DNA from: a virus
Length of the DNA stretch: 58,981 nucleotides
Direction: 5' to 3' (one strand)
IMG/VR virus record: IMGVR_UViG_3300031785_000001
Span: 1 to 58,981 of that record
Shown here in pieces: positions 14,836-58,100 of this stretch. Position 1 is the first letter of the stretch. Each line of letters begins with the position of its first letter. Under the pieces are notes generated by a model. It saw only the letters and a program-made list of their open reading frames with translations, did not search any database and was not told the origin of the DNA. The translations under genes and the position numbers were made by a program.

Positions 14836-16344
14836 TTACTCCCACTCTATCATTATGAATCCGGGTCCACCGACACCGCCGTAACCATTTGAACTTGAAG
14901 AGAAGTTTCCTCCTCCTCCGCCACCGCCTCCGCCGAGACCGCCTGCGCCACCGTCACCGTAGTAACCGCCACCTGCTCCGCCTCCACCGAGGATTCCACC
15001 ATTTCCGCCATGACATGAATGTTGGTGAGGAGTGTAAGAGAAGTTATTAGTTCTCATCATACCTTTGTCGTAATAGTAATAAAAATAACTATCGGTGTTT
15101 GAGTGACTGCCCCAAGAGCTTTGGTTGTAGCAACCTGCTCCACCACCTCCGGCTCCGGGTCCACCGTCTCCACCTTTAAAAGCATATTGATAACTTGAAT
15201 AACCAGTTCCACCTGCGCCACCTGCCCCGTAAGCAGAAGCTAGTGGTCCCCAAGCAAAGGTGTCTTCACCTAAAGTAAAACTAGTACCGCCACCGCCACT
15301 TTTAGACGCTAGATAAGAAGTAGCTCCGCCACCGCCAGTAGAACCTACACTACTCGCTAGGGTTTGGTCTCCGTGTATGTCTGCATTTTCTGTATGCCAA
15401 TTTTGGTTACTTGAGCCGTAACTAGAGCTACCGTTAGGATATTTTCCGCCAGCAGTACCGTATTTGCCAGCACCACCTTGTTGTGGATTGTTGCTCTGTA
15501 CGCCATTACTACCTGACGCACCGCCGCCTGCGCCACAGCCAGACCAATATTGGACATTACTTGTTGAGTTTCCGCCATGAGTCCAAGCACCGCCATTATT
15601 GGCTCCAACTCCGCCACCAGCACCTGAGTTACTGGTATATCCGCCTGAGTTAGATGCGCCGCCGTTACCGCCGTTACCTAAGACGAAACCTGCCGCTCCG
15701 CCTCCGCCTGAACCATAAGGTTCTGGACCAAATCCAAAAGAAAGAGTTGAGCCTGAGCCTCCAGTACCGCCTGAATAATTCATAAAACTGTTTGCAACTA
15801 ATCTTGTGCCACTAGGCTGGCTTGAGCCTCCGCCTCCGCCTGCACTGTAGAAACTTCCTCCAGTTCCACCATTAGATGACATGTTGATTTCGGTAGAACT
15901 TAAAGTTCCACTACCTTGTACAGTACTGCTTTGACCATTGGCTTGTTGTCCAGTGCCTTGAGAGTATCCAGAACTGCCGGGGTGTATTGATAAAGTTTCC
16001 CCTGCTGATACAGTAAATTTCGCTAGAGAGAAGCCACCGCCTCCTCCACCACCACCGCCGTGATAGTGTGTGCCTTGAGGACTTCCGCCTCCTCCGCCTG
16101 CTCCTACACATGTAACTCTAATCTCAGTTACACCTGATGGAACAGTCCATGTTGTTGCACTGTTGTACCAGTTTGAGCTAGTTGCTCCTGAAATGTTATT
16201 GTAGTTCTGACAATAACCTGTATTAAACCCAGTTGCTACTAGGTCTGGTCTTCCGAAGAAAAGAGAAAAGTTTTTATATTTTCTTTGGTCTCCTCCAGAA
16301 GTTGAACCGCTACCTGCTGTTTGTTGTGATAATAAAAAAGCCAT
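14836..16344 (-). CDS. Glycine-rich adhesin / receptor-binding protein
   Basis: A 502-aa product that is extraordinarily rich in Gly, Ser, Asn and Tyr, with many Gly4-Gly8 runs from about residue 70 to the C-terminus. Poly-glycine sandwich adhesins of this kind (as in the gp38 adhesins of T-even-like phages) cap fibres and set receptor choice; the link to that fold is inference from composition. I chose the ATG at 16344, which overlaps the previous stop as TAATG and has GGAGG 8 nt upstream, over an ATG 15 nt earlier. It is followed by a small acidic gene that may be its helper. Confidence 0.75.
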   Translation of the reverse strand: MAFLLSQQTAGSGSTSGGDQRKYKNFSLFFGRPDLVATGFNTGYCQNYNNISGATSSNWYNSATTWTVPSGVTEIRVTCVGAGGGGGSPQGTHYHGGGGGGGGGFSLAKFTVSAGETLSIHPGSSGYSQGTGQQANGQSSTVQGSGTLSSTEINMSSNGGTGGSFYSAGGGGGSSQPSGTRLVANSFMNYSGGTGGSGSTLSFGFGPEPYGSGGGGAAGFVLGNGGNGGASNSGGYTSNSGAGGGVGANNGGAWTHGGNSTSNVQYWSGCGAGGGASGSNGVQSNNPQQGGAGKYGTAGGKYPNGSSSYGSSNQNWHTENADIHGDQTLASSVGSTGGGGATSYLASKSGGGGTSFTLGEDTFAWGPLASAYGAGGAGGTGYSSYQYAFKGGDGGPGAGGGGAGCYNQSSWGSHSNTDSYFYYYYDKGMMRTNNFSYTPHQHSCHGGNGGILGGGGAGGGYYGDGGAGGLGGGGGGGGGNFSSSSNGYGGVGGPGFIMIEWE

Positions 16345-18254
16345 TAGACTATCCTCCATCCATTTGTGGCATCTGAATAGACAAGTTCAAAAGCCGCGTT
16401 TTTAACATCGCATGTCATATCATCGGAATTTCCCTGTATGACAAGACCATTTCTAGCAACAGTTAAGTTGTTGCTACCTCCAACCGCGAAGCTACCAGAC
16501 TGGTCAACTATTGCGACTGTATCTCCATATGTGGCTGAAGCAGGAAGCGTTAGGGTAAATGCACCCCCTGATGTATCAACAAAATATCCATTGCCTGAAG
16601 TTGCAGTTGTATTGGCACTTATATTAGTCCAACTTAAACCTGAAGTTTCCCAGACATAATTTGTTCCATCAGTTTGAAGGAATTTACCAGCTTGTCCTGT
16701 TGTAGAAGGTAAAACATATGACCCACCAGCCGCAAGTTGTGTCCATTTACTTGCGCCCAAATCTGTTGCGAATGTACCAGAAGTGTGGGTAGAAGCGGCT
16801 ATGTAGGTTGAAGAACCTTGAGTAACAACATCATCTTTTATGTAATCTGTTGCTGTCGCCCATGCTCCAGTAAACCTAATACCACCAGCGAATAGCTCCC
16901 ATTTACTAGCCGCTAAATCTGTAGCAAATGTTCCAGAAGAATGTGCTACAAGACATCTATAAGAGTTACCCCCATGAGATACGATGTCTCCGGGTTCGTA
17001 TGCAGTTGTAGTGGACCAAGTCCCCTCGTTCTTTATACCAGTTATGAAAGAGTCCCAGTAGGTCGTATCTGTAGGGAGGTTTCCAGTGGTGTCTTGTTTA
17101 GCTTTATAAAGCGAACCACCATAGGAAACTAAATCGTTTAATGTATAAGCTGTTGTATTGTTATATGCGCCCTCAGCAACGAAACCTTGTAGATATACTG
17201 CCCAATAAGTTCCGTTAGATACTGCGTTGCCTGTACTTGGCTGTAAGCATCTGTAAAGGTTTGCACCAGAAGACACAACATCATTTAACACATAAGCTGT
17301 TGCCGCATCGTAAGCACCTTTAAATGCATTACCTGCTACTAGCTGTGACCAATATGATGTGTCTGTTGGAACATTACCTGTTGTCTCTGCTGTACACACA
17401 AAAGATGATGCGCCGTAAGACACAATATCGTTAACTTTGTATGTTGTTGCCGCTTGGTAAGTTCCAGCGTGAGCCATGCCGGGGACAAATAATTCCCAAT
17501 GAGTTGTAGATGTAGGAGCGTTTCCTGTTGTTTCTACTTTAGCTCTGAAGGTATTACCTCCATAAATAACTACATCGTCTGGGACATAAGCTGTGGAGCC
17601 ATTGTAATCTCCTCTAGCTTTTACACCGCCAGTAAACTTCAGCCAGTATGCTGTGTCTGTTGGTAAGTTTCCTGTAGTGTCTTGGATAGCTATATATGTG
17701 CTTGCTCCGTAAGCTACAACACTATGCTTTCCGTAAGCTGTTGAATTGTTGTAGACGCCTTCTACACCAATACCTTCTAGCATTACTTCCCAATAAGTAG
17801 TGTCTGTTGGAACATTTCCAGTAGTGTCTAGCTTTGCTATGTATATTGATTTACCACCATACTGAACCATATCGCCTTTTTGATAAGCGGTTACGGCATC
17901 ATAAGTGCCTTCCCACTGTATTCCGTCTGCGAATTGTGACCAGTATGTGGCGTTAGGTGGTGTGTTGCCTGTGCTGTCTAGAATACAAATGTAAACTTTA
18001 CCACCATGAGCTACACCATCACCAACTCTGTAGTTGGCACTGTTTGAGTAATCTCCAATAAAACGGAAACCTTCTACCATCAATGCCCAATATGCTGGGT
18101 CTGTTGGTACTTTACCTGACTGTTTTAATCCATATGTGTAAACATAAACATTACCGCCATACTTGACGATGTCATTGGCTTCGTATGTTGTTGCGGCGTC
18201 ATACGCGCCTGCGAAGTGAAATCTCAGCTTCCCTAAATCTATTATCTGGCTCAT
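16344..18254 (-). CDS. Fibre or surface protein with ten carbohydrate-binding-like repeats
   Basis: A 636-aa product built from ten tandem modules of about 48 residues (about residues 10-505). Each has an aromatic pattern: Gly-x-Tyr/Trp, x-x-x-Thr-x-Tyr, Asp-x-Val-x-Tyr-Gly-Gly-x-x-Tyr, Thr-Gly-Asn, then a closing Trp. This matches the small chitin-binding-type carbohydrate module (ChtBD3/CBM5-12). The C-terminal 130 residues form a separate beta domain, perhaps for trimerisation. It probably reaches out to glycans on the host or on particles. The final two repeats are longer and differ from the others, which suggests domain gain or loss over time. Confidence 0.8.
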   Translation of the reverse strand: MSQIIDLGKLRFHFAGAYDAATTYEANDIVKYGGNVYVYTYGLKQSGKVPTDPAYWALMVEGFRFIGDYSNSANYRVGDGVAHGGKVYICILDSTGNTPPNATYWSQFADGIQWEGTYDAVTAYQKGDMVQYGGKSIYIAKLDTTGNVPTDTTYWEVMLEGIGVEGVYNNSTAYGKHSVVAYGASTYIAIQDTTGNLPTDTAYWLKFTGGVKARGDYNGSTAYVPDDVVIYGGNTFRAKVETTGNAPTSTTHWELFVPGMAHAGTYQAATTYKVNDIVSYGASSFVCTAETTGNVPTDTSYWSQLVAGNAFKGAYDAATAYVLNDVVSSGANLYRCLQPSTGNAVSNGTYWAVYLQGFVAEGAYNNTTAYTLNDLVSYGGSLYKAKQDTTGNLPTDTTYWDSFITGIKNEGTWSTTTAYEPGDIVSHGGNSYRCLVAHSSGTFATDLAASKWELFAGGIRFTGAWATATDYIKDDVVTQGSSTYIAASTHTSGTFATDLGASKWTQLAAGGSYVLPSTTGQAGKFLQTDGTNYVWETSGLSWTNISANTTATSGNGYFVDTSGGAFTLTLPASATYGDTVAIVDQSGSFAVGGSNNLTVARNGLVIQGNSDDMTCDVKNAAFELVYSDATNGWRIV

Positions 18255-25542: not shown

Positions 25543-26011
25543 TCTTTACCTCCAATGCTTCTACTTCTATAGAAGATATACCAGAAGCTATAGCCTCTAA
25601 ATCTTCCCTAGATAGTTCTGTTATTTGCTTTGTCGTGTGTTCATGTTGAACAAACGATGCATTTAAGTCTGGTATTACCTTATTAAGAAGTATTCCAAAC
25701 ACCCTAGCCTGAGTTGGGTTCCATTCAATGCCTCCCATAACCACAGAATGAGCGTCTTTTATTTGGTCAGTTACATAAGTTGCTATTTGACCTCTTATTT
25801 TTGCTGATTCAGCCGGGGTTAGTTTTTCTTTTTGTACAAGTGATGTCATTTCTTCAGCCTTTCTAATATTGGGTGATAACTTTCTACATTCCATTGAGCA
25901 ATATTTTCTTCTTTCTTTATGGCTTGCTTTAGTTTTGAACTTCTTTTTGCAAGTAGCACATGTAATTTCAACAGAGTTCTGAACTTTATCCTCTTCATCT
26001 AGCGTTTTCAA
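25517..26011 (-). CDS. terS: Probable terminase small subunit with N-terminal zinc finger
   Basis: A 164-aa protein. Residues 19-41 hold a Cys-x2-Cys...Cys-x3-Cys zinc-binding cluster. The centre (about 85-125) has the helical pattern Ala-Arg-Val-x-x-Ile-Leu-Leu-Asn-Lys-Val-Ile-Pro-Asp-Leu seen near the C-terminus of many small terminase subunits, where oligomerisation occurs. It starts at TTG (26011) with GGAG 8 nt upstream; no ATG fits. As the first gene of the late block, beside the packaging motor, it should choose the packaging site. The zinc finger is an unusual addition. Confidence 0.7.
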   Translation of the reverse strand: MKTLDEEDKVQNSVEITCATCKKKFKTKASHKERRKYCSMECRKLSPNIRKAEEMTSLVQKEKLTPAESAKIRGQIATYVTDQIKDAHSVVMGGIEWNPTQARVFGILLNKVIPDLNASFVQHEHTTKQITELSREDLEAIASGISSIEVEALEVKNEDKESGS

Positions 26012-26068
26012 AATTTGCTCCGCTTAGTAGAGCCGTAGGGGAGGTGGCGATTTGGCGAAAACGGACGC

Positions 26069-26087
26069 GGGCGGGGACGCCCCGCCC
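26069..26087. repeat. Perfect 8-bp GC palindrome with 3-nt loop
   Basis: Arms 26069-26076 and 26080-26087 are fully complementary and made only of G and C, with the loop ACG. On the minus strand it lies in the leader of the small terminase gene, about 60 nt before its TTG start, and could form a very stable RNA hairpin or a DNA cruciform. Confidence 0.8.
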
Positions 26088-26300
26088 CCCACTGCGCAGA
26101 ATCGGGCATATCCTAGTCCCAAAAGCCCGCAAACCCTTGATTTCCCTAGGTTTTCCGTCCCTTGTTAAGGGATTTTTAGCCCTTCTCGCGTGTATGCAAG
26201 ACGCAGGCGTTTTGAGTTCCTTGCTCGCAAGACCGATTTCGATAGGTTTTTCGCGCATGAGTGTAACCATTTCAGCAACTTAGCACCAAAGCCGAGGTCA

Positions 26301-26308
26301 GGTCGTCC
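26301..26308 (-). promoter_or_regulatory. GGACGACC motif in the divergent region
   Basis: A fourth exact copy of the octamer, on the late strand, upstream of the small terminase gene and not next to any stop codon. Its presence here argues that the motif has a role other than ending translation. Confidence 0.45.
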
Positions 26309-26360
26309 CACGCGTAGTCCCGAAGGGACTTAAGGGGTGAGCCGACAGCAAGTCGGATTG

Positions 26361-26394
26361 CCCTCGCTGTGTGCGGAGGGTTCAAACGCACACA
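26361..26394 (+). ncRNA. H-type RNA pseudoknot before the first early gene
   Basis: Stem 1 pairs 26361-26365 (CCCTC) with 26376-26380 (GAGGG). Stem 2 pairs 26368-26375 (TGTGTGCG) with 26387-26394 (CGCACACA), all perfect. The two stems abut at 26375/26376 and can stack; the linking loops are 2 and 6 nt, the geometry of a classical H-type pseudoknot. It ends about 8 nt before the AGGAGG ribosome site (26402-26407) of the next gene, so folding or ligand/protein binding could gate translation, as in the T4 gene 32 leader. The regulation is inferred. Confidence 0.65.
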
Positions 26395-26413
26395 CATTCA
26401 CAGGAGGTTCCAA

Positions 26414-26794
26414 ATGGAATCACAATCAGCGAAACAGTGCGCGCAAGCGTATGTGGACGCGAAAACCGCGTCTGCGAAGAAGAAAATCCTCACACAGGTA
26501 GGCGCGAAAGCCAAGACCTCGAAGCGAGTAAGGTGGTCACGCCTTCACGCGGACATGGTCGCAGGAGACGAAACTCGCATACTCGCGAGAGCGACAGGCG
26601 ACTGGTCAAAGGTCGAGCGCAAGCCCGCGAAAGCGAAGCCAACGGCTTCGGCAAAGCCGAAAGCTAAGGCAAAGCCAAGCGCGGATGTGAGCGTGATTAA
26701 CGCACTAGCGCAAGAGTTAGCCGACTCAGGCGCGGATGAGCAAGCGCAACTAGCGTTCCTACGCGTTGCAACGAAGTTGCTCAAGAAGTCCTAA
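26414..26794 (+). CDS. Basic Ala/Lys-rich protein, probably nucleic-acid binding
   Basis: A 126-aa product. Residues 1-68 form a helical basic domain with many Lys and Ala. Residues about 72-95 are a Lys-Pro-Ala repeat tail like those of histone H1 or bacterial DNA-compacting proteins. The C-terminal 30 residues form an amphipathic Ala/Leu helix. The start is the ATG at 26414, behind AGGAGG. It has its own structured leader and its own strong terminator, so it is probably an abundant early protein. Its G+C is higher than most of the genome. DNA compaction or transcription control is possible; the family is not recognised. Confidence 0.7.
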   Translation: MESQSAKQCAQAYVDAKTASAKKKILTQVGAKAKTSKRVRWSRLHADMVAGDETRILARATGDWSKVERKPAKAKPTASAKPKAKAKPSADVSVINALAQELADSGADEQAQLAFLRVATKLLKKS

Positions 26795-26802
26795 CTCCCA
26801 AG

Positions 26803-26841
26803 ACGCAAGTGAGGGCGCAAGCCCTCGCTTGTGTGTTTTTT
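26803..26841 (+). terminator. Strong rho-independent terminator
   Basis: Arms 26803-26816 and 26821-26834 form an almost perfect 14-bp stem closed by a GCAA tetraloop, followed by seven T. It ends the transcript of the basic-protein gene 9 nt after the stop codon. Confidence 0.92.
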
Positions 26842-26872
26842 TGTTTTTTTTCATGCGCAATAGGAGACAGCT

Positions 26873-27079: not shown

Positions 27080-27148
27080 GACGAAATCCGCCCAATCGGG
27101 CGGGTAAGTGTGGTGTGAGAGACCACGCTCTGATGAGTCATCTCAACT
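27074..27148 (+). ncRNA. Type II hammerhead self-cleaving ribozyme
   Basis: All conserved core parts are present in type II order. C27082-G-A-A-A27086 leads into stem III (27086-27093 with 98-105, loop AATC). It ends in T27105-A27106, the UH cleavage triplet. Stem I follows (27107-27114 with 27122-27129, loop of 7). Then comes the invariant CTGATGA (27130-27136). Stem II is closed by GAC 27080-27082 with GTC 27137-27139, then an internal loop and GGTT/AACT (27074-27077 with 27145-27148). Predicted cut: between 27106 and 27107. It lies between two early genes and would split their shared mRNA just before the ribosome site of the next gene. Confidence 0.88.
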
Positions 27149-27165
27149 AGCAAATGGAGGTGCTA

Positions 27166-27512: not shown

Positions 27513-28103
27513 ATGCCAAATTGGTGTGAAAACATAGCCACAATATCGCATGACAACAAAGAGTCCATGCAACCATTAGTCAATGCTCTCAAGAGCGTTA
27601 CGCAAGCGAGAAAAGAATACTATGACAAGCTAGACAACGAGTCTGTCACGGATACTTTTCAGGTGTGTTACGAAGCAAATTATGACGACTGTCCTGAGTT
27701 CTTTCAGGCAACACACCCAATGCCAGACGAACTTAAGGGAACATCATCCCCACAGGATAGCCCTAACTGGCATGACTGGAGACTAGCAAATTGGGGAACA
27801 AAGTGGGATGTCCGATACGACTCCCTCAAAATCCACAGCATGTCTGACACGAGCATAACAGTTCAGTTCGACACAGCTTGGTCTCCACCTCAAGAGTGGT
27901 ATGCGCACATGAGATTGTGGAATTTCAAGATAGACGCATACTATTTCGAGGGTGCTATGGACTTCTGCGGTCTAGACACGGAAGAGGACGGAGAAGAGAC
28001 CTACTCTTGCAGTCAACTAGACTTGATTCCAACTCGCATAGACCAGTTATTCGGTATCTCCGAATACTACAAGGAAATGGAAGAAATGCAGGAGGATGAA
28101 TAA
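27513..28103 (+). CDS. YubB/Api92-like protein (ferredoxin-fold domain)
   Basis: A 196-aa product that opens with Met-Pro-Asn-Trp-Cys-Glu-Asn, the hallmark start of the Api92/YubB (DUF1281-type) family found in phages and plasmids. A second signature, Asp-Trp-Arg...Asn-Trp-Gly-Thr-Lys-Trp-Asp (about residues 89-103), and a Phe-Asp-Thr-Ala-Trp-Ser-Pro-Pro stretch (about 119-127) are also typical. The biochemical role of the family is not known; it is common in accessory early regions. AGGAGG precedes the ATG at 27513. Confidence 0.75.
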   Translation: MPNWCENIATISHDNKESMQPLVNALKSVTQARKEYYDKLDNESVTDTFQVCYEANYDDCPEFFQATHPMPDELKGTSSPQDSPNWHDWRLANWGTKWDVRYDSLKIHSMSDTSITVQFDTAWSPPQEWYAHMRLWNFKIDAYYFEGAMDFCGLDTEEDGEETYSCSQLDLIPTRIDQLFGISEYYKEMEEMQEDE

Positions 28104-28198
28104 TGCCCCCGTCAATCATCATTCTCATAGTTGTGTGGCTTGCATTGTTTGGACTAGCCATACTTTTAGGTTTCACCGCGTCCAATGGTGGAAAATAA
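28103..28198 (+). CDS. Tiny membrane protein, 31 aa
   Basis: The ATG overlaps the preceding stop (TAATG), with AGGAGG about 9 nt upstream. Residues 4-24 are one hydrophobic segment of Ile, Leu, Val and Ala; the short tail is polar. It lies directly before the large structured noncoding stretch. A role with that RNA or in the membrane cannot be told from sequence. Confidence 0.55.
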   Translation: MPPSIIILIVVWLALFGLAILLGFTASNGGK

Positions 28199-28860
28199 TT
28201 CATTATGCGCAGGTCTGCGCTTCCCCTGAAAGGGACTTATATAGTGAGATTTGAATTTCGAGTTGTTCCGACTCGGAATAGGTCTAGCTGTGTGCTATCA
28301 GGACACATGGCTAGACCAACAAGAATTTGTCTCGGTTGTCAGTTAAGAATCCAATAAAACCCGCATGGCGAACGAAAAGTGTCTAGTGCGTGGAGACACT
28401 GTGGTGGAAAGTCACAGACGACTAAAGGAGACGAGTATAGGTGGGTAATAGCCGTCCTAGGTCACTACCCTTAATTCGTAGAGAATCAGTTGCGAGCTAA
28501 TCTGCGAACCTTCTGCGCGAGGTTATTAGTGCGTGTGTGTCTAGCCAATCTTGTTAGAACTGCTGACACAGTCATCTACCTCGTAGCAGACGAGCCATGT
28601 ATTCAAACATGAATAGACAATCCTCAACATATCCTGTTGGTGCTTTATGCACATATCAGGGGTGGTCACATACTGTAAGGAAGACCACAGCAAGTCGTTC
28701 ATTCGTGTTTGTCTAGTCTTGCACAACGCAAAGGCAAGACAGAGGTATCCCAAGATAGAGAATTGGGAGTTCACCTCGCCACCTAGGGGTGGTATGCACT
28801 TCTACTCCTAGGATTTGACATTAGGTGTAACGCATATTATACACATACCTAATGTGCTTT
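28199..28860 (+). ncRNA. Candidate large ornate structured RNA, about 660 nt
   Basis: No convincing gene lies here, yet the stretch is dense with perfect inverted repeats in series. Examples are 28281-28288/28310-28317 (8 bp), 28378-28384/28394-28400 (7 bp), 28536-28545/28562-28570 (9 bp with one bulge), 28580-28584/28590-28594, 28596-28600/28607-28611, 28662-28667/28683-28688, 28716-28722/28734-28740 (7 bp), a nested pair 28742-28753/28763-28777, 28779-28783/28788-28792, and 28818-28826/28847-28855 (9 bp). The hexamer GTCTAG recurs four times. Size and layout recall the ornate RNA classes GOLLD, ROOL and OLE, of which GOLLD is linked to phages. Class membership is not established. Confidence 0.72.
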
Positions 28861-28898
28861 AACTTTAATTTTAACTTTAACCATTTACGGAGGTAAAT

Positions 28899-30842
28899 AT
28901 GGCACTTGAATGTTGCTTAGAGGAACTTCAACGAGTCCTCAGTGAGCCTAAGTTTGTCGATAGACGCAAAGGCTTACGAAAACTAGCTACTCCTATCCTA
29001 GAAAAGGAACTATCTCAGGCAGAAATTGAGTCTTGCAAAGCAGATAGTCCTGTCTGGGGTTCACGGGAGGGGCAAATCAACCCTAGCACAACAGTCTCAG
29101 GGTTGAGAGACAGTCTAGATACATCCACCTTGCTTGTTCTTATAGCTACACATCTAGATTGCAGAGGCGGTAAGACTCCGCCTGTTAACCCACTTATGAT
29201 TCTCGACAGTCTTTCAGACACAGACAATCTACACAAGTCTGAAAAGTCTTCGACAGGATACATATTTGGGAGACCAACCTTTACAGAGGATGATGATGTG
29301 ACCGAACTAGAAAAACACATCTTGTCCTTAGACACACCAACAACCGCAAAAGAGGAGACATCTATGTCTGGAAATCCATACGAAGAACTAGCTACTGATG
29401 AAATCATGCAAGTAATCCTGTCTCTTAGACAAGACTACGAAGAAGAAGATGTTAGGTCTGAGTTTAAGGATGTTCTTAGCAAGACCAAAGTGGTTGCTAT
29501 CGAAAGCATGCTTGAACTTGGTGCTGAGTATGACAGAGGTTATGTGTTTAGTCAGGTCGGCAGGCAGTTGAGGGTAGACATATCCACAAGGATAGATGCT
29601 CTGGACGAAGACACATCAGATGTGTCCGAGTCTAAGCCTGTTGTTTCTGAAGAGTTTGCTCCCTTACCAGATGAGGCAAGCTCTAACATGATTGACATGG
29701 TCTTGAAGAACGCAGGCTACACAGACATAACGACTAAGGCTCTGTGGGATAAGATTAGTGGTCAGAGCGACACCATAGCCAAGTTGAACGAGAGAGTAAG
29801 CACTCTTGCATTATCGAGTTCAGATGTTAGCGGTGGCTCAGACTCCATGCCCTCTAGTGAGGATATGCCAAACGGTAAGGTCGTAGTCAAACAGGCATAT
29901 GAAGTCTTCAATGTGGGTAGGCAGAAAAATCAATTCCTATTCAATGTCCCCGTTTATGAGTGGGATACACCACATCCTCATGTTCCTGAGATAGACAGCA
30001 ATTACCAATGGAACTACGACATCTTAAGACGAGTGCTTTACAGCATAATCTCTAACACAAGATGTTATTTGCATGGTCATACTGGCACAGGCAAGACGAC
30101 ATTCGTTGAGCAAGTTGCCGCGTGTCTTAAGTATCCGTTTATGAGAGTCAACTTTGATTCAGAGGTTACTCGTATGGACTTGATTGGTAGAGACACACTC
30201 AAGCAAGAGGACGGTGTAACTGTCTCCAAGTTTGAGGATGGAATACTGCCACAAATGATGAGTGGTCCATATATAGGGTGCTTTGATGAGATTGACTTTG
30301 TTAGACCTGATATTGCCTATGTAATGCAGAGAGCCTTAGAGGGTAATGGTCTGATGATTACAGAGGACGGTGGTCGTGTCGTTAAGCCACATAGAATGTT
30401 CCGAATGTTTGCTACAGGCAATACTGTGGGGCAAGGAGATGAGTTTGGTATGTATCAAGGTGCAAGACCACAATCTCTAGCCATGCTTGATAGATTCCAA
30501 GTCTGGGCGAATGTTCCTTACATGACCTCTCCACAAAGAAAGAAACTTATCAAGGCTAGTGTTCCCACATTAGAAGAGAAAGACCTAGATTCGATTAGCC
30601 AATATGTAGATGAGCATATGGTTGCTTTCAAATCTAGTGAGGTTATCCAACCGATTAGTCCTAGAGGTTATGTGTCATTAGCTAAAGCGGTGGTTGCTTT
30701 CTACGAGTTCTATCCTGACGCAAAAGCTGACAAGGCATTTCAGTCTGCCTTTGAGACTGTTGTTTTGGATAGGGCAAATGTTCAGGACAAGGTAGTTCTG
30801 AAAGCGATTGGTGACAGAGTATTCAACAAGACGGAGGTGTAA
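28899..30842 (+). CDS. cobS-like: CobS/MoxR-like AAA+ ATPase with long N-terminal extension
   Basis: A 647-aa product. The AAA+ core occupies about residues 335-620: Walker A Gly-His-Thr-Gly-Thr-Gly-Lys-Thr (393-400), Walker B Cys-Phe-Asp-Glu-Ile-Asp (461-466), and sensor-1 Asn508 in Ala-Thr-Gly-Asn-Thr. This is closest to CobS, the ATPase subunit of aerobic cobalt chelatase, and to MoxR remodellers. The 330-residue N-terminal part is unlike CobS, Ser/Asp/Glu-rich, and of unknown role. The next gene is the CobT-like VWA partner, one base away. With no other cobalamin genes present, a protein-remodelling machine is more likely than a metal chelatase. Confidence 0.88.
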   Translation: MALECCLEELQRVLSEPKFVDRRKGLRKLATPILEKELSQAEIESCKADSPVWGSREGQINPSTTVSGLRDSLDTSTLLVLIATHLDCRGGKTPPVNPLMILDSLSDTDNLHKSEKSSTGYIFGRPTFTEDDDVTELEKHILSLDTPTTAKEETSMSGNPYEELATDEIMQVILSLRQDYEEEDVRSEFKDVLSKTKVVAIESMLELGAEYDRGYVFSQVGRQLRVDISTRIDALDEDTSDVSESKPVVSEEFAPLPDEASSNMIDMVLKNAGYTDITTKALWDKISGQSDTIAKLNERVSTLALSSSDVSGGSDSMPSSEDMPNGKVVVKQAYEVFNVGRQKNQFLFNVPVYEWDTPHPHVPEIDSNYQWNYDILRRVLYSIISNTRCYLHGHTGTGKTTFVEQVAACLKYPFMRVNFDSEVTRMDLIGRDTLKQEDGVTVSKFEDGILPQMMSGPYIGCFDEIDFVRPDIAYVMQRALEGNGLMITEDGGRVVKPHRMFRMFATGNTVGQGDEFGMYQGARPQSLAMLDRFQVWANVPYMTSPQRKKLIKASVPTLEEKDLDSISQYVDEHMVAFKSSEVIQPISPRGYVSLAKAVVAFYEFYPDAKADKAFQSAFETVVLDRANVQDKVVLKAIGDRVFNKTEV

Positions 30843-30843
30843 T

Positions 30844-32820
30844 ATGAAATCGACTCTATTTCAGCATGAGGTTAACAAGACTAGCACAATCTTTGGTCGT
30901 GACGAGAAAGTTAAAGTGGTTTTTCAAGGCGACCAAGCATGCACAGACGGAAACACAATCACGATTCCTACTCTTGATGACACACAGGATATTCCTGTGG
31001 AGAAACAACAGATAATTCGTGGGTATGTTGACCATGAGGCAGGGCATGTAAGACACACAGACTTTAGTGTTCTTCACGATAACCAAAAGTTGTTTGCTAG
31101 GGATAATTTACTTGCCCAATGCAACAATGCTTTAGAAGACATTTGGTTAGAGCGAAAGGTTATTTCTGAGTATGCAGGCGCAGAGAAAAATCTTAGGGCT
31201 GTGTCTAGCGCAGTCAATAAGGAGTTCCTTGACAGCATAGACAAGGATGATGAACGCATTGAAGACCCCAAGTTCATTGGTCCTGTGTCTCTCACATGGG
31301 AGGGTAGGAAAGACTATGGTGGAGAGGGCAATCAGGAATGTATTGACCTGTTACCCAAAGATTTTGCCAACAAACTACCTAACTACATCAAAGGTCTAGA
31401 CGCCTGTAAGGATAGCAAGGATGTCTTTACTCTTGCCAAGATAATCAGAAATCAATTCTCTTCTGACAAGCCAATGAGTGAGGAAGAGTTTGATGAGTTG
31501 GTTAAGGAAGCAATCAAGGACAAGACGAAATCTGTATCAGTGCCAGCAGAGCATGAAATTGAGGGTGCATCTGACGATTCTCGTGAGGGCGAAGACGGTT
31601 CTTCTGGTGACGGAGAAGAGAAATCCGACAAGACATCTAGCGTTGGAGATGATTCGGTAAGAGAAGAGGGTAATGATGATTGGAAGAGTGACCATGAATC
31701 AAAACATGATGAAACTCCTAGCGAACATTCAGGAGGGAGCGGTGTTGGTGCAGAAGAGAGAGCAACAACATCCGAGACCTACGAGAACTTTGATGTCGGC
31801 ACTATCTTGCAGAAAGAAATCTCTGATTACACATCAAAGTCAGGGGGTGGAGTTTATAGACCATTCTCTACTGCCTTTGATAAGTGGCATCACAGGAGCG
31901 ATGAGCATGGTCTGTATGGAACATACGATACTCTAGGTCACAGCATCCTATCTCATGGGCGTCCTGCAAAGTATGACAGGATACTCAACCAATCAAGTGG
32001 TCCAATAAATGTGATGAGACGCAAGCTAGAGAGATGTCTCCTTGCCAAGCAGAATAGAGATTGGTTAGGCAACCAAGAGGATGGGAGGTTAGATACTAGG
32101 CGTCTTGTTGGTGCGTTTAATGGCAGTGCCAATGTGTTTAGACAGAGGTCTCCTCTTCAGGAATTGGATACTGCTGTTACTGTTCTGATTGATTTGTCAG
32201 GCAGTATGCATGGCTCACGGGCAACCTTAGCTATGCAGGCTAGTATATGTCTTGCCGAAGCACTTGAGAGAACAGGGTGTGTTTACTCTGTGTATGGTTT
32301 CAATAACCAATCGAGTATGGCTTGGGAGAAACTAACGGAAGAGCAGAGAGAAGATTACTACAATGGTTCTTGGTCTCGAACAGAGTGTATGGATATGTTC
32401 ATATTCAAAGACTTTCAAGAGAGACTACACGATTGTAAGGGTGCTATGTCTCGCATAGCAGACTGCTCTAACGGTAATAACTCTGACGGCGAATCCATAC
32501 TTAAGGCTTACGGTAAATTAAAGAACAGGCGCGAGAGCAGAAAGGTTTATCTCGTTATGTCTGACGGATACCCCGCCTGTCACACCAACTGCACCGATAC
32601 TTTGTATCAGCATACAAGAGACGCAGTTAAGACTATCGAAGATGACGGTGTTGACATCATTGGTATAGGCATTGAGTCCAAAGCTGTGTCTAGGTTCTAT
32701 CCTAAGTATGTAGTGCTAGACAAAGTAGAAGACTTATCTGGTGCGGTTATGGATAAGCTGAGTAAAGCATTGTTAGGAGAGAGATTCGAGATTGATAACT
32801 CGGTCTTGCTCAATGCGTAA
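30844..32820 (+). CDS. cobT-like: CobT-like protein: HEAGH site plus VWA domain
   Basis: A 658-aa product, with start ATG at 30844 behind GGAGG. An N-terminal domain (about residues 15-200) holds His64-Glu-Ala-Gly-His68 and a downstream Asn-x-x-Glu-Asp-x-x-x-Glu helix (96-103) that could supply a third zinc ligand. An acidic, Ser/Asp/Glu-rich linker follows (about 235-330). A C-terminal von Willebrand A domain (about 445-640) has the MIDAS motif Asp450-x-Ser-x-Ser454. In CobS/CobT and MoxR/VWA pairs the VWA protein presents substrates to the ATPase ring. The HExxH motif raises the option of a protease. Substrate unknown. Confidence 0.85.
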   Translation: MKSTLFQHEVNKTSTIFGRDEKVKVVFQGDQACTDGNTITIPTLDDTQDIPVEKQQIIRGYVDHEAGHVRHTDFSVLHDNQKLFARDNLLAQCNNALEDIWLERKVISEYAGAEKNLRAVSSAVNKEFLDSIDKDDERIEDPKFIGPVSLTWEGRKDYGGEGNQECIDLLPKDFANKLPNYIKGLDACKDSKDVFTLAKIIRNQFSSDKPMSEEEFDELVKEAIKDKTKSVSVPAEHEIEGASDDSREGEDGSSGDGEEKSDKTSSVGDDSVREEGNDDWKSDHESKHDETPSEHSGGSGVGAEERATTSETYENFDVGTILQKEISDYTSKSGGGVYRPFSTAFDKWHHRSDEHGLYGTYDTLGHSILSHGRPAKYDRILNQSSGPINVMRRKLERCLLAKQNRDWLGNQEDGRLDTRRLVGAFNGSANVFRQRSPLQELDTAVTVLIDLSGSMHGSRATLAMQASICLAEALERTGCVYSVYGFNNQSSMAWEKLTEEQREDYYNGSWSRTECMDMFIFKDFQERLHDCKGAMSRIADCSNGNNSDGESILKAYGKLKNRRESRKVYLVMSDGYPACHTNCTDTLYQHTRDAVKTIEDDGVDIIGIGIESKAVSRFYPKYVVLDKVEDLSGAVMDKLSKALLGERFEIDNSVLLNA

Positions 32821-36469: not shown

Positions 36470-36540
36470 GAAAGGGCGAGTTTATAGGATAAAAAAATCG
36501 TAATTTCAAGATTTATTTTATAATAATTTATACAAACAAT

Positions 36541-36573
36541 ACCCCCTAGCTTTGTGATAGGGGGTTTCGTTTT
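36541..36573 (+). terminator. Rho-independent terminator ending the early operon
   Basis: Arms 36541-36548 and 36558-36565 (ACCCCCTA and TAGGGGGT) pair perfectly around a 9-nt loop and are followed by a T-rich run. It closes the plus-strand unit that starts after 26.8 kb. Confidence 0.88.
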
Positions 36574-36769
36574 GCCGAACGAATGGAAACTGATTACATG
36601 TAATGCTTTGTGTTTACTTATTGTAATCGTTTGTAATTATATTACTTACGACAAATTTGATTACGGCGCAACAGATATTGTCTGCGCTTACTCAAAGCGA
36701 AGTGGTAAGAAAAAAAATAAAACAAAATCATTTACTAATGAATTAGAAGAGCTAAACGAGAACGCTTAA
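36572..36769 (+). CDS. Doubtful small membrane protein, 65 aa
   Basis: The open frame has one hydrophobic segment (about residues 9-24) and a basic, then acidic tail. There is no ATG. The TTG at 36572 has a purine-rich AGGGGG 7 nt upstream, but this lies in the terminator stem; a GTG at 36554 lies in the terminator loop. It may be a real gene or a chance frame. Confidence 0.35.
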   Translation: MPNEWKLITCNALCLLIVIVCNYITYDKFDYGATDIVCAYSKRSGKKKNKTKSFTNELEELNENA

Positions 36770-36953
36770 GCACCCTAAGTAAGTGATGAAGATGACAATT
36801 TTTATCAGGTTATCAAAGTATTTTTCAAGCATAGCCTGATATACACCCACCCCAAACAGAGTCAAGCACAATCGTGCAATTCCTAATGACTTATAGTCGC
36901 ACTTGACTATTTTGCTGTATGCTGTATAACTAATAATACAGGGAGCAATATTA
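36770..36953 (+). promoter_or_regulatory. Integrase upstream region with promoter, possible attP
   Basis: A 184-base gap before the integrase. A sigma-70-type promoter is visible: TTGACT (36903-36908), 16 bases, TATAAC (36925-36930). Upstream are two sets of inverted repeats, TATCAGG/CCTGATA (36803-36809 and 36835-36841) and GTCAAG/CTTGAC (36861-36866 and 36902-36907). Such repeats beside an integrase could be arm- or core-type recombinase sites, but no tRNA-like core is present, so attP is not proven. Confidence 0.5.
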
Positions 36954-49146: not shown

Positions 49147-52100
49147 CTACCATTTATTACCCCATCCTTTTTGCCATTCAGAACCCCAGCCGTTTTGTTT
49201 TTTCTTTCGCCCGGTTGGTTCTCCAGCTACTGCATCAGTAATACCTTCTCTCCAATCTCTTACACCACCAACGATTGGTATTCTAGTAGCAACAGTTCTA
49301 ACCGCAGTTCTTTCTTTAGCGTTGCTATCTGTGCTTCCTAGGATTGCATCTTTCACGCCACCCATGACATGAACTGAGTCTTGGAAGAGACCTACAGAAG
49401 GACCGCCAATGTTAGACATAAGTCTGTTAACCCCATAAGCTCCGTTGTCTGCTTGGGTCGCCGCGTTATGCGCAAGCTCTCCAAAAATTCCAAGACCACC
49501 CATATGCATTATGCCTTCCATGTACCAACCTAAGACATCATGCTCGTTGCCATGTATCTTTTCGTCATAACCCATAAACTTTAATGCGTTCCTAACTCTT
49601 ACATCAGCTTCTCTTTCTGTGTCTCCACCTCTAAGCTGTATTGTATCTTTTGCCGCTAGAGAAAAAGCACCAAAGGCAGGTCCAACACTTAACGCATACA
49701 TAAGAGGAGCCTTTCGCCCATCCTTTTTCATAGCTTCTTTCCATACATCCCAAGACATCTTTTGCATCATCAATGTAAAAGACTTAAGCTGGAATATCAT
49801 TGCGCCCCAAGGAGTTTGCGCCCACAAAGGTATGTCATTTTGATTCGGCTGGAAGATAGATTCATCAGCAAATCTTATTATTGCTTGTCTTAACTCTTTA
49901 TCATCTGCAAATTTTGTCAATGCTTCAGTAGAATCTAAAGACACTTTACCTTCATTACCTTCTGGTAAAAACTTCTCAAGACCATATCCTTTTAAATACC
50001 TATGAGCTTGTTTGTATTCAACGCTTTGTTTGTCAAAAGATACTCTAGGATTGTAATGTCTATTAGCTTTTGCCTGCATGGTCTTGAATGATTCAAACCC
50101 TACTGAGCCAGCGAACTTTCTGTTTAAATCCGTCCAAGGAGTTAGTAATGTTGTATTAAAGAAGGCGTTACTTAACTTACTACCTGTTCCGCCATACATA
50201 TAAAGCTGTCTTTCATGCAGAATGTTTTCTATAGCAACACCTGTGTTATACATGAAACGCCTATAGTCAGGGTCTCTCGCCCACTTACTTAAACCTTTAA
50301 CATAATCTTGCATTGAGCCAGACCTAATAAGAGGTAACACAAGGTCTCCAAGAGATGTAAGAGTTGTAAATCCTAATAATGATATATTGTTAAAACCTCT
50401 TACGGTCTTAGACATTTTCATTAATGCTCTGTTGTAATCAGCATCTTGTGGCTTCTTCATTGCTACCGCTAAAGACTTGTCCATAAATCTAAAGTCTTCA
50501 TTAGTCCAGCTAGGAGCTTTATCTCCTTTAAAGTCTTGTAGTGCGCCTAGTATTGCTTCGGCTCTCTTTACATAGCCTTCAGTTGGAATACCAGAACTAT
50601 CGACAGGAGCGACATCCATAAGAAGTTTTCTAGCAGAAGCTATTCCGTGTCTTTGATACTCTTCGACAAGACCATCAACAAATGCACTAGCCTCACCTTC
50701 TCTATTCAAGAAAGGCATGGTCACAGTATCGGTTAAATCGTACTGAGTCATATTGCCGTCTAAATCTAAACCATATTTATTCCAAGTAAACTCTCTTGGT
50801 GTTGACAATAATTTTGCTATGCCAGATTTACCATGTTCAGCAACATGCATGTAGTCATACCAAGCGTGGGAATTTATACCTAGTTTTTCTGTATGAGCTA
50901 ATCTTCTGGAGCTTCCCTCAAAATACTTAGTAAGCAAGAACTCTAAGTCATGCTCAAGAAACTCTTCCATATTAGCCATATGGTTAGGGTATTTTTCTAA
51001 CTCTATAACTCGGTTGTAATCAATGGCGTCTGATGTTGGGTTACGAGAACCTCCTCTATGAGGAATAAACACACCATCTGAACCTTCACCAGCTAAAGTT
51101 TCATACATCCTTCTAGCAAACTCTTGAGCGTCTGCTTCATTAACCATCTTACCGAAACCAGCTTGCTCATCTATATAGTATTGCCTCATACCTTCTAAGA
51201 ATTTACCTCTATTCTTATCTATAGCTTCTTTGTTCCAGACTTGAGGTAAATAATTTTCTCTTCTTCCCACCATAATTCCAGCTTGGGTTAAAGATTGATG
51301 CTCTGTTTCAAAAGCATTTCTTACATCATCATAGATTTCTAATTCTTGTTTACTTAAAGCAGAATGTTGTCTTGAGCCATCACCGTTCCTTAAGGCTCTA
51401 ACTATTCTTTGATAACTTTCAGGCTGTGTGTCACGAGTAAAGAATTGTCTTGGACCTCTTCTGTACCAAGAGTTTATTCTTCCGTGAGCGTCTGGAAGTT
51501 TCCTTAACTTTTCTTGTATTGGGAAAAACTTACCAGCAAATTTCTGCTGTACATCTGAGAAGTGCTGTTTGTACCAATCGGCTATCCAGTTAGCACCCAT
51601 TCTTTTCATTCTTCCAGATTGAGAAGAGAAAATTTTACCAACCGAATTATCCTTAAGAGCCTGTTCTTCATTTGCGTTTAGCTGTCTGCCTTTAATCATA
51701 GACATCATTGCGCCACTAAGACTTGAGTCGCCACCAGCTTTTTCTACTGACTCTCCAATAAGCCCCGGATTAATTGCATCAAGACCGCCTAATTTCTCAG
51801 CCATCATTGCTTCAATTATTCCACCGTTTATAGCTTTAGGAATACCAGCTTCTGGGGAATGATAAAGTCTTGCGTCTGCCTCATTAAACTCAGCCGCGTC
51901 AACATGCTTTACATTAGCTGTGTCAAAAACCAAGACGCCTTTATGACTTACGAAGTCTCCTTCATATGTTTCTTGGTTTCTCATTTTAGGAGTGCCATCA
52001 ACATTTGTTGTGTTGAAGTGTGTAGTTATAATTCCATCATAACCCAAGTCTTCTAATGCTCCATTAAGTTCTGTCTTTGCTTGATGCATACCTCTGCCAG

Positions 52101-55100
52101 AATCTCTAAGGAGTTGAGTAAGAGCTAAATATGTATCTCTTCCGTTTGTTGGGTTAGATAACTTATCAGAAAATTCTCTTATAGCTTTAGGTTTAATGCT
52201 GTCTGTGGCTTGGAAGTATTCTAATACTGCGCCTACCAATCCATCAGATATATTATAAGAAGCACTCTTTTGGAAGTCGGCAGGATTCTGGACATTCACA
52301 TATAAAGGAATAACCAGTGGGTCAGTTGTAATGCCGTGCTTAGTTAGGTTGTCTAAAGAAGCCTGTTCCATTTCGACAAGCTCATCTAATTCTTTTTTCA
52401 ATACAGATAGTCTTGTCTTGTCTTGGTCTCCAACATTCTCAAGATAGTAAGCCCTTCTCTTAGCAGATATTTCTTTTCTTACATCATGTAAGTCTTGAAC
52501 TTCAAAAATTAATTCTTCTTTTATTTCATCTGTATTATTACTCTCCATGATAGCTCTGTGTTGAGATTCTGGAGTTGGCTTCTTTGCGTATGTCTGACTA
52601 GCAACACTTGGGTTGTCTGATATATAAACCCCCGGTCCATAAAAACCATTAACACTTGGGTTCAAGACAACATCTGGATTGTCTGCTCTATTAAAAGCAT
52701 ATCCGTTAGGTGTGCCGTGATAGAAAGTTATAATCGAATCTACTTTAGGATTGTATCCTAATCCATTTCCTGTAAATTCTTTTATCTTTTCTAGTCTCCA
52801 CTCTGGAGAACTTAAAACTAAATCGTTTACTGCATTGGTTGCATTTGATGGGTGTAAGGCTGGTCCGCTCTTAGCTATAGCATCAGACATAGGAGCAACA
52901 TTTGGCTTCTCAAACATATCGCCAAACATCACAAGTCTTCTGAACTCTTGTTTAATGCTGTTTCTACCAATCAATCCGTTAACAACATAAGCTACATATT
53001 CAACGGTTCTATCTATCGCTCTTTCAAATGCGTTCCTTAACTTAAGATTAGACACATCACGATTAAGAACTGAGTTTAGTAAGTTTCCTTTACTTACTCG
53101 CTCTGACATATATAAAGCTAGTTGCTCAGAGAACCATTCTTCGGCTAACAAATCTTCTAAAGATTCATTTGTGTAATCCGCATATTTACTTGCATACTGA
53201 CTATTAATTTTTGTTTTAATTATGTCATCAGCACCTCTATACAAATCTACTATAGCTTGCTTTTCATCAGGCTTTAATGCGCCAGACCTAATGACCATAT
53301 GACCAACTTCATGCATAGCATCAAAAGGTGTAGCCGTATCTTTGTTTAAGCCTATAGCAACTCTTCTTAAATCCTTTCTTAACTTATTAAACTCAGGAGT
53401 TTTGGTGTCATAAAAAACTGCCGCGCCAATTTTTGAAGGCTTTACTCCAGCTAGTTTTGCTACAGTTTCTGTAGAAATAATATCTACTTTGTCTAGGTTT
53501 TCTTTTTGAGTTTTATTAAGAAGGTTAAACATCCTATAACCAAGAGTTCTAGCTGTGTACTGAATCTCTGGGTCTCTGTGTGTAACATAACTAAGAATGT
53601 CTCTAATAGAAGCGCGAGCAGAAGCAGGTATGCCATCAGAAGAAGACACTCCAACGCTATCTTTTATTTCTGTTTCTATAACTAAGTTGGTCTCAGTAAA
53701 CTTAGGTTGAATTATTTGCTGACCTGTAGACTTAAGACCTTTGTTAGTATATCTGCGCCTCATTTCATAACTAGCTTGGTCTATTTTTGTAGTGTTGTTT
53801 TCTGCAAGACCATTAAGCATGATGTCTTCTAATTCTCTACCGCTCATATTCTTCATTTCTGGAGGAATAGGAACAGCCCTTGCTGGAAGAGAAGTAGCTT
53901 TGTTTTTTCTAAGAAGCTCTATAGCAATTTGGTCGCCATACTCTGTGCCTCTATGCTCTACATAAAGTTTTCTTAGTTCTTCAAGACCAATAGACTTAAC
54001 CTCTTTGGCAGTCTTCTTATCTAATTTCTGGTTGTATTTAGAAGTTCTAGGTCTATCTTTGGGTGCAGTTTTAGCTGTCTTTAGTGCTTCGTTATCAACA
54101 GCTTCTACAGATTTTCTATTTTGATTCCTTGCTCTCTTAAGCGATTTACTTGAACGACTTCGTCTCGACTTCTTACTGTTGTCTAACTTTGGCTTTCCAG
54201 CTAAAGCACGACCTTCTGTCTCTGAGTACCTAGCTTTTAAAGTTTGTTCAATAGTATCTAGAGTATTAGACAAAGATGTCTTGCCTATATTTTTGTCTGT
54301 TACTTTTGCTGGCAATCCGTTAGCTGGTTGGAATACACCTTCATATCCGTTGTAATAAAAATCTCTCAACCTATCAGCAACTTCTTGAGGGTCAGCAACC
54401 TCTGTAAGACCATCATCTATATAATCATTAGATGTCTTGCCTTCTACTTTAGGACCAAGAATCATTTCATCAATATCATCTATCCTATTATGAATAAGTG
54501 CTGTTCTTTTTCTAAGAGGGATAAACGACTGAGGAAGTTTCTCATCTGGGTTTGCATTTATTCTTCTACCCAGCCTAATCTTTGGATTTGTAGATAGCAT
54601 TATTTTAACTAATGCTTTATGCGCTTCAATTATTCCATCAGCACTATCTCTTAAGAAAGCATCTTCTAGGTCTGCTCTTGCTAATGTGTATTCAACATAA
54701 CGCTTGTTAATATGTTTACCAAGTTCTGTCTTTGGTTTGGCTTCTACACCTAATTTAAACTCAGCCCTTTGTGCAGGAGGGAGTATCTTAGAGAATAAAG
54801 GCTCTAAGTCTGGGTCTATTTCTACACCTTGAGCGTAACGCTTGAAGATAGCTTTCATCTTTCTCATTACAGAGGTCCAGAAATTATCATCTCCAGAAAG
54901 ATGCCTTTGTCTTGTAGCCCATAATTCAAACTGATTAGCAAACAGTTCTGCTGGAGACTCAAACATATTGGCTATTTTTATTACGCCATCAGGGTCAACA
55001 GGACCAACTCTTCGCATAATAGACATGTTGTCTACGCCACCGCCATCAACATAATACTTCTCCATCCCCTTCCAGAATGTCGCTCTTTCTTGAGGAGTTA

Positions 55101-58100
55101 AAATATTAAGATAAGCCCAGTGAGCTACCTCATGGTATAGGGGAAGACTGCTTGGTACTTTAGGGTGAGGAGTTGAAGATAAAGCTACTTGTTCTCCTGC
55201 GTCTGTGTATTGAGTACTTAAATTATTTGCGTCTCCAGAATCAATAAATCTAGGACCAACAGTATTATCGCCGCCAAGTTTTTCTATGAAGTCTACAGCG
55301 TTTTCTATTTCTTCTGCTGAATACTTTGAGAACAACGACCTAATATCTTCTACAGACCTAGCTCTAATGTTGTCTGGTTGCACATAACCTTCAGGAACTA
55401 TCTCATCCATAAGGCTATAAATTTCAGAAAGTCTTGAAGCATGCTCTCTGTGGTATTCAACAGTAGGCATCCATTCGGCTGTCTCCATATCTCTACTAAA
55501 TTGCTGTAAATCAGAAGCAGTATTTAATTCTCTTGGATTATCTGGATTAGCTTCTCTCGCAACTTTTTGTAGTGCTTGGAAAGATTCTCTTTCTTTTATT
55601 TCGTCTGGAATAATTCTTTCATGCAAATCTAGTATGTTCGTAGGCTCACCTACACCAGTTGCATCTCCAACATATAGCCTTTGACCTGCTGGTCTTGCGC
55701 CTTCCTCTGCTGGTAAGGATTCAAACAGCGCACTTAAGACTCTAGCATTTGAAGTCCAATCTTCTTTCGGTGCGTATTTAAACTCCCAATTATCTGGGTC
55801 AGATTTAGGTCCACCTTTCTGACCTATAATAGCTGTAATGTCTTTACCATCTTCAGCTTGTTTGCGGTTAATCATCCTTACATCAGTAGGGTCTATTGTG
55901 CTTCTTGCGATAAGAAGTTTGTCTCCCTTTGAAACAGGTTGATGTAGTTTAGGTGTCTCTGTCTCAACTGGAGCATCACCTGAGCGTTTCTTAGTAACCC
56001 TAAGTAATTCCCTAAATTGGTCTAGAGCTAATTCTGGCTCTCCATTCTCAGCAATAGTAAGAATCTCTCGGAGCTTAGTAGCATCTGTATTAGGAGTAGG
56101 CTCTGGTGCTGATTCAGTACCAAGCTCTGGTGCATTATCCCTAACGACTTGAGGTTCTTGAAGTTTCCTTTTTGGCTCCCCTCCTTCTCTTACTTGCACG
56201 GCTAATTCTTGAGATTCGTATGCTCTCTTTGTAACTCCATCAGCATAAAGAGTTGTCCCAGCAGGAACTTCTTTAATACCATTTGCAGTTATTACTCCCC
56301 TCATTGGATGAGTTGTAACAAAAGGAACTATGTCTGGTCCTGCTTTGCCGTCACCATAAGCCACAGCGTTCTGTGCTTTTATAAGAGCTTCATCAAAAGC
56401 AAACTCTGTCGGATTAACAGCGTCTATTGTTCCGTGCTTGGTGGTTCTCCTCATAAAGGATTGGATTCTTCCAGCAGAAGTTTTACCAGCACTTCCTACA
56501 AAACCAATATCTTTGTCGGAGGCAAAGATATTTGCTTGTTCTATTCTTTCACCAGTCCCTCTAACTGGAGTTGGGTCAACCTCAGACACCCTAAGAACAT
56601 TGTCTGTAGCCATTCTTTCTGCTACCAAATCGCTTATGCCCGGATATTGTTTCTTAATGATTCGGGTTTGTTTTTTAATAGCTTTTTCTTGCGTCTTGGT
56701 TAGCTTGATTTCCATTCTCTGCGAACCGCCAGTAGGCGCATTTATGTGCAGAGCATCAAACAAAGCCAGTATGTCGTCTGTAGATACTGGAGTTCCTCTT
56801 GCGAGAAGTGCTACTCCTCTTCTTAAATCTTCGGTAGGAATCTCTCCTAAATCTTTTAGCTCATCAAGTATCCCAGACAATTCGTCTTGAACTTGAGTGG
56901 CATAGGCACTAGGCTCTCCTCCTTTTTTAACTTCAGCATTAACTGTAGCTTTCGTTATCTTCTTACTTTTTCCTCTAGGTTTTAAGGCGTTAGGGTCTAT
57001 GCCATTCATTAAGGCATGACCTTTTACATCATCTTTAATTGAGAATATTTCTTCTGGTACGGAATCTTCTACTAGATTACTGGTTTCATTAACTTCCACA
57101 TCCGTCTTAGGCATAGCCTCGTCTGTGTCTACAGTTTTCTGTATACCAGTTAACTCTTCATCATAAGCCTTTAATGTATTGTTAGTTACTTGCTTAGGTT
57201 TCTTCTTGCTTCGGCTTAATGGTAGAGGATTTTCAGTGTCGTTAATTCTTGCCCTGAAGTCTTCTTCTGTAACTCCGTGTTTTGCAAAAATCCTTTTAGC
57301 TTTTGCGCCAATTCCTGCTGTTGAATAGGGAACAGGTGCGTCATCTTCTATAACTTTAGGAATACCTGTGTCGGTTGTAGTCGCCCCTGCGGTTTCAGGA
57401 GAGAGAGGTTCTGTTGTTCCTGATTCCGCAGGGACTTCAACTACTTCAGCTTCACGGTTTAGGGAGGAATCAGCCGACCCTTCATTCGACTGAACTTGTG
57501 AAGCGTCTGTGGTTGCCTCTGCACTTGCGCCATCTGCACGAGTGACTAATTCTTCTCCGTCTGGACCATCAACACCATTTACCGCCGCTCTCCAATCAGC
57601 ATAATCATCTTCAAACTTAGATACTCTAGCTTCTCTTTGTTTGATTTTAGCGGGGTCTTGTTCATCTACATTAAAACCAACAATCTGCTCTTGTTCTGTT
57701 TTAAGTCTTGCAGACATTTGTCTTAGTCTACTTATTCTTTTTACTACTTCACTCTGAGCGACCCATTCATCAGAATCTCTTCCATGAGTCTGAGCAACTT
57801 TATCTAATTGCTCTCTAGCATCTCTTAATTTTTCAACTAATAAATCTTCTTTAGCTTTGAAGTCCGCTTCCTCTACAGAAACCTCCTCTACAACTTCCTC
57901 AGCTTCTGTCTCAGGAGCCTTAGCGTCTTCGTCTATCTTTGCCTTAGTTTGCTCAACTAAATCTTCTGGAGTAGTTCCTGCTCTCTCCATAGAAACTACA
58001 TCATCAGCTTTCCAGCCAAGTGCCTCGGCTTCTTGTACTGGCTTTAATGCGCCTCTTGTTCCTACCGCACCACCGACACCACCAAGACCACCACCTATTA

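Follow-up and report, generated by a model that had tools for sequence, protein, structure and literature searches.

Genome and locus

The window, by which we mean the whole stretch of DNA analyzed here, is a viral record of 58,981 bp. The nearest cultured relative of the phage is Roseobacter phage CRP-810 (TerL, 78% identical; CobS, 46% identical), the type of a marine phage family described with 251 uncultured genomes, of which almost every one carries cobS and cobT (PMC11288001). The window phage encodes a Prim-Pol, an integrase, and a CobS/CobT-like AAA+/VWA pair, and it is a CRP-810-type phage by TerL, the cobS-cobT pair, Prim-Pol, integrase, and gene order, features shared with that family (PMC11288001). 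No relatives of CobS were found among representative bacterial genomes.

The region of interest extends from position 28199 to the start of cobS (28899). An initial annotation had read it as one ornate RNA of about 660 nt; it consists of three pieces, namely, a copy of a leader element, a middle of ~530 nt, and the cobS promoter. The relevant features are as follows.

26316 to 26365, plus strand: leader copy 1, 5′ of the small basic gene
26414 to 26794, plus strand: small Lys/Ala-rich basic gene, the first behind leader copy 1
26803 to 26842, plus strand: strong intrinsic terminator directly after this first gene
28103 to 28198, plus strand: 31-aa hydrophobic open reading frame (ORF) (MPPSIIILIVVWLALFGLAILLGFTASNGGK), overlapping the stop of a 196-aa gene; no PHROG match
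28224 to 28259, plus strand: leader copy 2, in three parts
28281 to 28317, plus strand: strongest hairpin of the stretch, GGTCTAGC...GCTAGACC, with AGGA and an ATG (28307) in the loop/3′ arm
28285 to 28813, plus strand: the middle, structured and apparently untranslated, ~530 nt, in a slot that varies among relatives
28741 to 28779, plus strand: double hairpin, GAGGT[TCCCAA...TTGGGA]ACCTC
28815 to 28843, plus strand: sigma70-like cobS promoter, TTGACA-17 nt-TATACA, with the dyad GTGTAACGCANNTTATACAC
28899 to 30842, plus strand: CobS-like AAA+ ATPase gene
30844 to 32820, plus strand: CobT-like VWA gene

Leader element

Leader copy 2 comprises a GAA-loop hairpin (28224 to 28234), a core, AAGGGACTT-N5-GTGAG (28230 to 28248), and a weak second hairpin, GAGAT-TTGA-ATTTC (28246 to 28259), which was not significant on its own. 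The search pattern was an AAGGRACUU core followed by 3 to 10 nt, GNGAG, and a hairpin. Core matches numbered two in the window (26323 and 28230) and three in CRP-810, and at least one was present in 13 further records of the 47 searched, compared with two matches in all 47 records for a reversed control pattern. Two to three copies per genome are common in many CRP-810-type phages, and one contig carries at least six. The GAA-loop hairpin precedes many copies, not all, with a stem that may covary (UUCC/GGAA, UCCC/GGGA, UACC/GGUA): both partners of one pair had changed in 13 of 25 sequences, with a covariation score above all 500 shuffles, and this concerns only one of the four pairs. The second hairpin is formed by differing sequences in different phages (median P = 0.05 per copy). 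Near position 1806 of contig L146, two leader elements stand almost in tandem, the second core ~80 nt past the first. Positions 27085 to 27150 of the window, before a 115-aa gene, hold a hairpin, GTGAG, and a second hairpin, and resemble a divergent third leader lacking the AAGGRACTT core.

In phage lambda, the nut site has a small gene and a terminator behind it (nut-N-tL1). Leader copy 1, with its small basic gene and strong terminator, resembles this layout and that of HK022 put. A strong intrinsic terminator was found ~480 to 550 nt past copy 1, after the small basic gene, at 12 of 13 loci scanned (the thirteenth, L040, ends short of the terminator position), placing the leader upstream of early-operon terminators as is typical of put/nut-type sites; an upstream promoter was seen only for the cobS copy. 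Like lambda nut and the put RNA of HK022, a phage antitermination site (PMC9378689), the leader is a short hairpin element of ~60 to 70 nt present at least twice per genome, but its sequence differs from both. In contig L205 (G039:C1:9000-16602, reverse strand), seven core matches occur within 7.6 kb; six small genes each have one of them 61 to 80 nt 5′ of the ATG, in most cases immediately behind the preceding stop codon. Such a pattern of one copy per small gene is better fitted by a per-gene leader or promoter than by one antiterminator per operon. Antitermination is not required by it, and from sequence the element could also serve as a promoter, in RNA processing, or in translation.

Three more specific readings of the leader were rejected: a promoter for a phage RNA polymerase, because no polymerase was found among the window proteins scanned (a partial set, including a 3,206-aa ORF); an ECF-sigma promoter at GGAACTT, because no conserved second element was seen by eye downstream; and a conserved leader peptide behind the core, because its start codon, judged by eye, is not conserved. 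The available part of the CRP-810 family description mentions neither a leader element nor a promoter or noncoding RNA (PMC11288001). The leader is a more general find than the middle RNA, and it offers a testable candidate for an element that controls genes in a marine phage family of wide occurrence.

Cargo slot and cobS promoter

The leader occupies the equivalent position in L017, L021, L023, L029, L030, L037, L129, L143, L147, and CRP-810, followed by a slot of variable content. The slot holds an 88-aa gene in L017, a gene of about 65 to 77 aa in L029, members of one family in L143 and L147 (127 and 134 aa, respectively), and two genes each in CRP-810 and L129; L030 and L037 have no clear gene, only a doubtful 50-aa ORF in under 300 nt, and L021 and L023 have none. 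Whereas protein genes occupy the slot in CRP-810, that of the window consists of 530 nt without a gene. None of the relatives' slot genes showed homology to the window stretch, in which no trace of a gene decayed from these or from its neighbors was found.

The slot ends at the cobS promoter. The promoter motif with GTGTAACGCANNTTATACAC occurs once in the window and recurs 5′ of cobS in L004, L007, L032, and CRP-810 and, by pattern, in further relatives. Its flanks became complementary in the window lineage, giving the last of the stems listed in the initial annotation.

Coding status and folding

The initial annotation had seen no plausible gene here and had named conserved reading frames as an observation that would count against its RNA. 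ORFs within 28199 to 28898 gave no Pfam or PHROG match (best E = 0.095, on the minus strand). In the 3′ half of the stretch, two indels relative to a same-species contig, L001 (34 nt and 1 nt), break the ORF frames, and since neither length is divisible by three, a conserved frame is excluded there. The absence of a gene seen in the annotation was confirmed.

Folded as a whole, the plus strand of the stretch had a minimum free energy of −225.4 kcal/mol (z = −5.6; minus strand, z = −3.9). Fourteen perfect stems were counted (nonoverlapping, ≥5 bp; 7.4 ± 2.3 in shuffles, P = 0.01), yet as many were reached in 5 of 176 same-size segments of this genome, and the last stem of the initial annotation is the promoter dyad. 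The ~530-nt middle alone gave z = −3.2, within about one standard deviation of the genome background (−1.6 ± 1.7). Local fold signal was strongest at 28160 to 28320 and 28640 to 28880 and weak at 28320 to 28640. In the strongest hairpin (28281 to 28317), the ATG at 28307 opens a 16-aa ORF 77 nt past the leader core, and the placement of AGGA and ATG may be functional.

The hexamer GTCTAG was confirmed at 28282, 28381, 28539, and 28711, and CTAGAC at 28311; the proposed role of GTCTAG as a repeated submotif was not borne out. The hexamer is enriched genome-wide (50 occurrences against 30.6 expected) and densely spaced over 27.2 to 29.1 kb, and so is no marker of the stretch. CCTAGG palindromes at 28456, 28782, and 28807 make up three of the nine in the whole genome.

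Conservation and distribution of the middle

L001, which is nearly identical, is the only relative of the middle that was found. This contig starts partway through the stretch, at the equivalent of 28579, so that statements on structural conservation apply to the 3′ half, the part represented by a second genome. Its predicted fold matches that of the window in every helix, with only minor end effects. Before the promoter, L001 differs by an inserted G, C28669T, and a 34-nt insertion; all three differences fall in apical loops (19% of positions), and the 34-nt insertion, in the apical loop of the double hairpin at 28741 to 28779, itself folds as a nested hairpin. With the inserted G scored as one indel and one A-to-G substitution, the middle shows 2 substitutions in 229 positions, a lower rate than at fourfold sites (38 of 850; Fisher P = 0.009); this low count is modest evidence, because some same-size coding segments also show only 0 to 2 differences from L001.

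A search of IMG/VR with four exact 16- to 17-mers returned only L001 as a true homologue of the middle, with very near records possibly outside the set searched; L068, L102/L106, and L108 were rejected as chance 16- to 17-mer matches. No homologue beyond L001 was found in the whole records of 47 relatives or via CobS-carrying relatives, no close contig was found with the upstream 196-aa gene, and annotated phages yielded no DNA homologue of the stretch. Antisense targets of the middle within the phage did not exceed chance.

To judge from its sequence, the middle probably represents a real RNA, transcribed, folded, and untranslated, with a narrow distribution.

Interpretation of the middle

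We tentatively favor the reading that the middle is an accessory-cargo RNA, structured and untranslated, of one CRP-810-type lineage that would act in trans. It stands behind the family-wide 5′ leader, in the slot that ends at the cobS promoter, and would be transcribed from upstream as part of the early operon, no terminator having been found between leader and cobS; the folded RNA, coding for nothing, might then serve a takeover or defense-related accessory function in trans. This reading is favored because the cargo slot is occupied while cobS keeps its own promoter. The wider proposal, that the repeated leader drives an exchangeable early-cargo slot in this marine phage family and that one lineage swapped in a functional structured RNA, is possible but doubtful. 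The known cargo of phage accessory slots is protein genes, and a structured RNA would be unusual content, easily missed because gene callers annotate nothing there. The recurring leader provides a handle for finding such slots across CRP-810-type phages.

Alternatively, the middle could act in cis as an extended 5′ leader for cobS/cobT: upstream-initiated transcripts would pass through it, and its hairpins would adjust how far cobS is read through, how stable its message is, or how well it is translated. Consistent with this are the leader element at the 5′ end of the stretch, the promoter-overlapping hairpin perfected in the window lineage, and the terminator pattern: many relatives carry a terminator within the slot or ahead of the cobS promoter, whereas none was found here from 28199 to cobS. 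However, cobS has its own promoter 3′ of the hairpin chain, and most of its mRNA may therefore lack the chain; moreover, the promoter-to-cobS stretch (3 changes in 47 relative to L001) varies more than the chain does; we consider a cis role somewhat unlikely. Nonfunctional filler, be it what is left of a former cargo gene or a fragment picked up from elsewhere, with hairpins partly due to chance, would account for the narrow distribution and the weak z-scores over 28320 to 28640, and the slot is dispensable, being empty in L021 and L023. Against filler stand the excess of stems, the slow divergence of the 3′ half with changes confined to loops, and the failure to trace a decayed relative-derived gene; we consider filler unlikely. 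It is very unlikely that the stretch centers on a very short gene whose start is sequestered (the 28307 ATG, its AGGA and ATG held in the 28281 to 28317 hairpin): the 77-nt spacing from the leader fits the 61 to 80 nt of the six L205 genes, but the ORF has only 16 codons, lies outside the part covered by L001, and accounts for 50 of the 530 nt.

The initial annotation had likened the stretch to GOLLD, ROOL, and OLE, which form RNA-only homo-oligomers (PMC12286853). Like these, the middle is several hundred nucleotides long, has many hairpins, and encodes no protein, and GOLLD and ROOL are also phage-borne (PMC12286853); moreover, the three CCTAGG palindromes could in principle make kissing contacts. 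A giant RNA that self-assembles into a cage or dimer is nonetheless the least probable reading here, and a very improbable one. No Rfam family matched the stretch at the gathering threshold, only two chance-level matches appeared at E ≤ 5 over 28000 to 29000, and the covariance models of GOLLD, ROOL, and OLE gave none. Unlike those RNAs, the middle is known from a single species-level lineage, and the ends of the stretch are elements shared with other loci, the leader and the promoter; for the most part, it forms simple hairpins in series. GOLLD and ROOL frequently lie near phage tRNA genes (PMC12286853), whereas the window contains no tRNA gene. What survives of the earlier proposal is a structured, probably untranslated RNA, without the single ~660-nt giant. 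The tiny hydrophobic ORF directly preceding the stretch was confirmed, but the speculative OLE-like membrane-protein parallel drawn from it gained no support: the only candidate nearby is this 31-aa ORF, which has no family match. A cobalamin riboswitch, considered because of cobS/cobT, had no Rfam match upstream of these genes.

Other features of the genome

Further noncoding gaps lie at about 25850 to 26413 and at 36470 to 36953. Within the former, a divergent intergenic region (26010 to 26320) separates terminase-side genes from early genes and contains several inverted repeats that appear to be conserved in the family; GC skew switches sign near it, a possible packaging or origin site. The latter is AT rich, with a terminator-like hairpin directly 5′ of the integrase gene, and is a possible attP/lysogeny control region. 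The 3,206-aa ORF (49147 to 58767, minus strand) has a subthreshold ART-PolyVal match and a structural-protein PHROG match and probably encodes a giant, polyvalent virion protein. A tail-fiber-like protein (16344 to 18254, minus strand) carries nine matches to the carbohydrate-binding module CBM_5_12.
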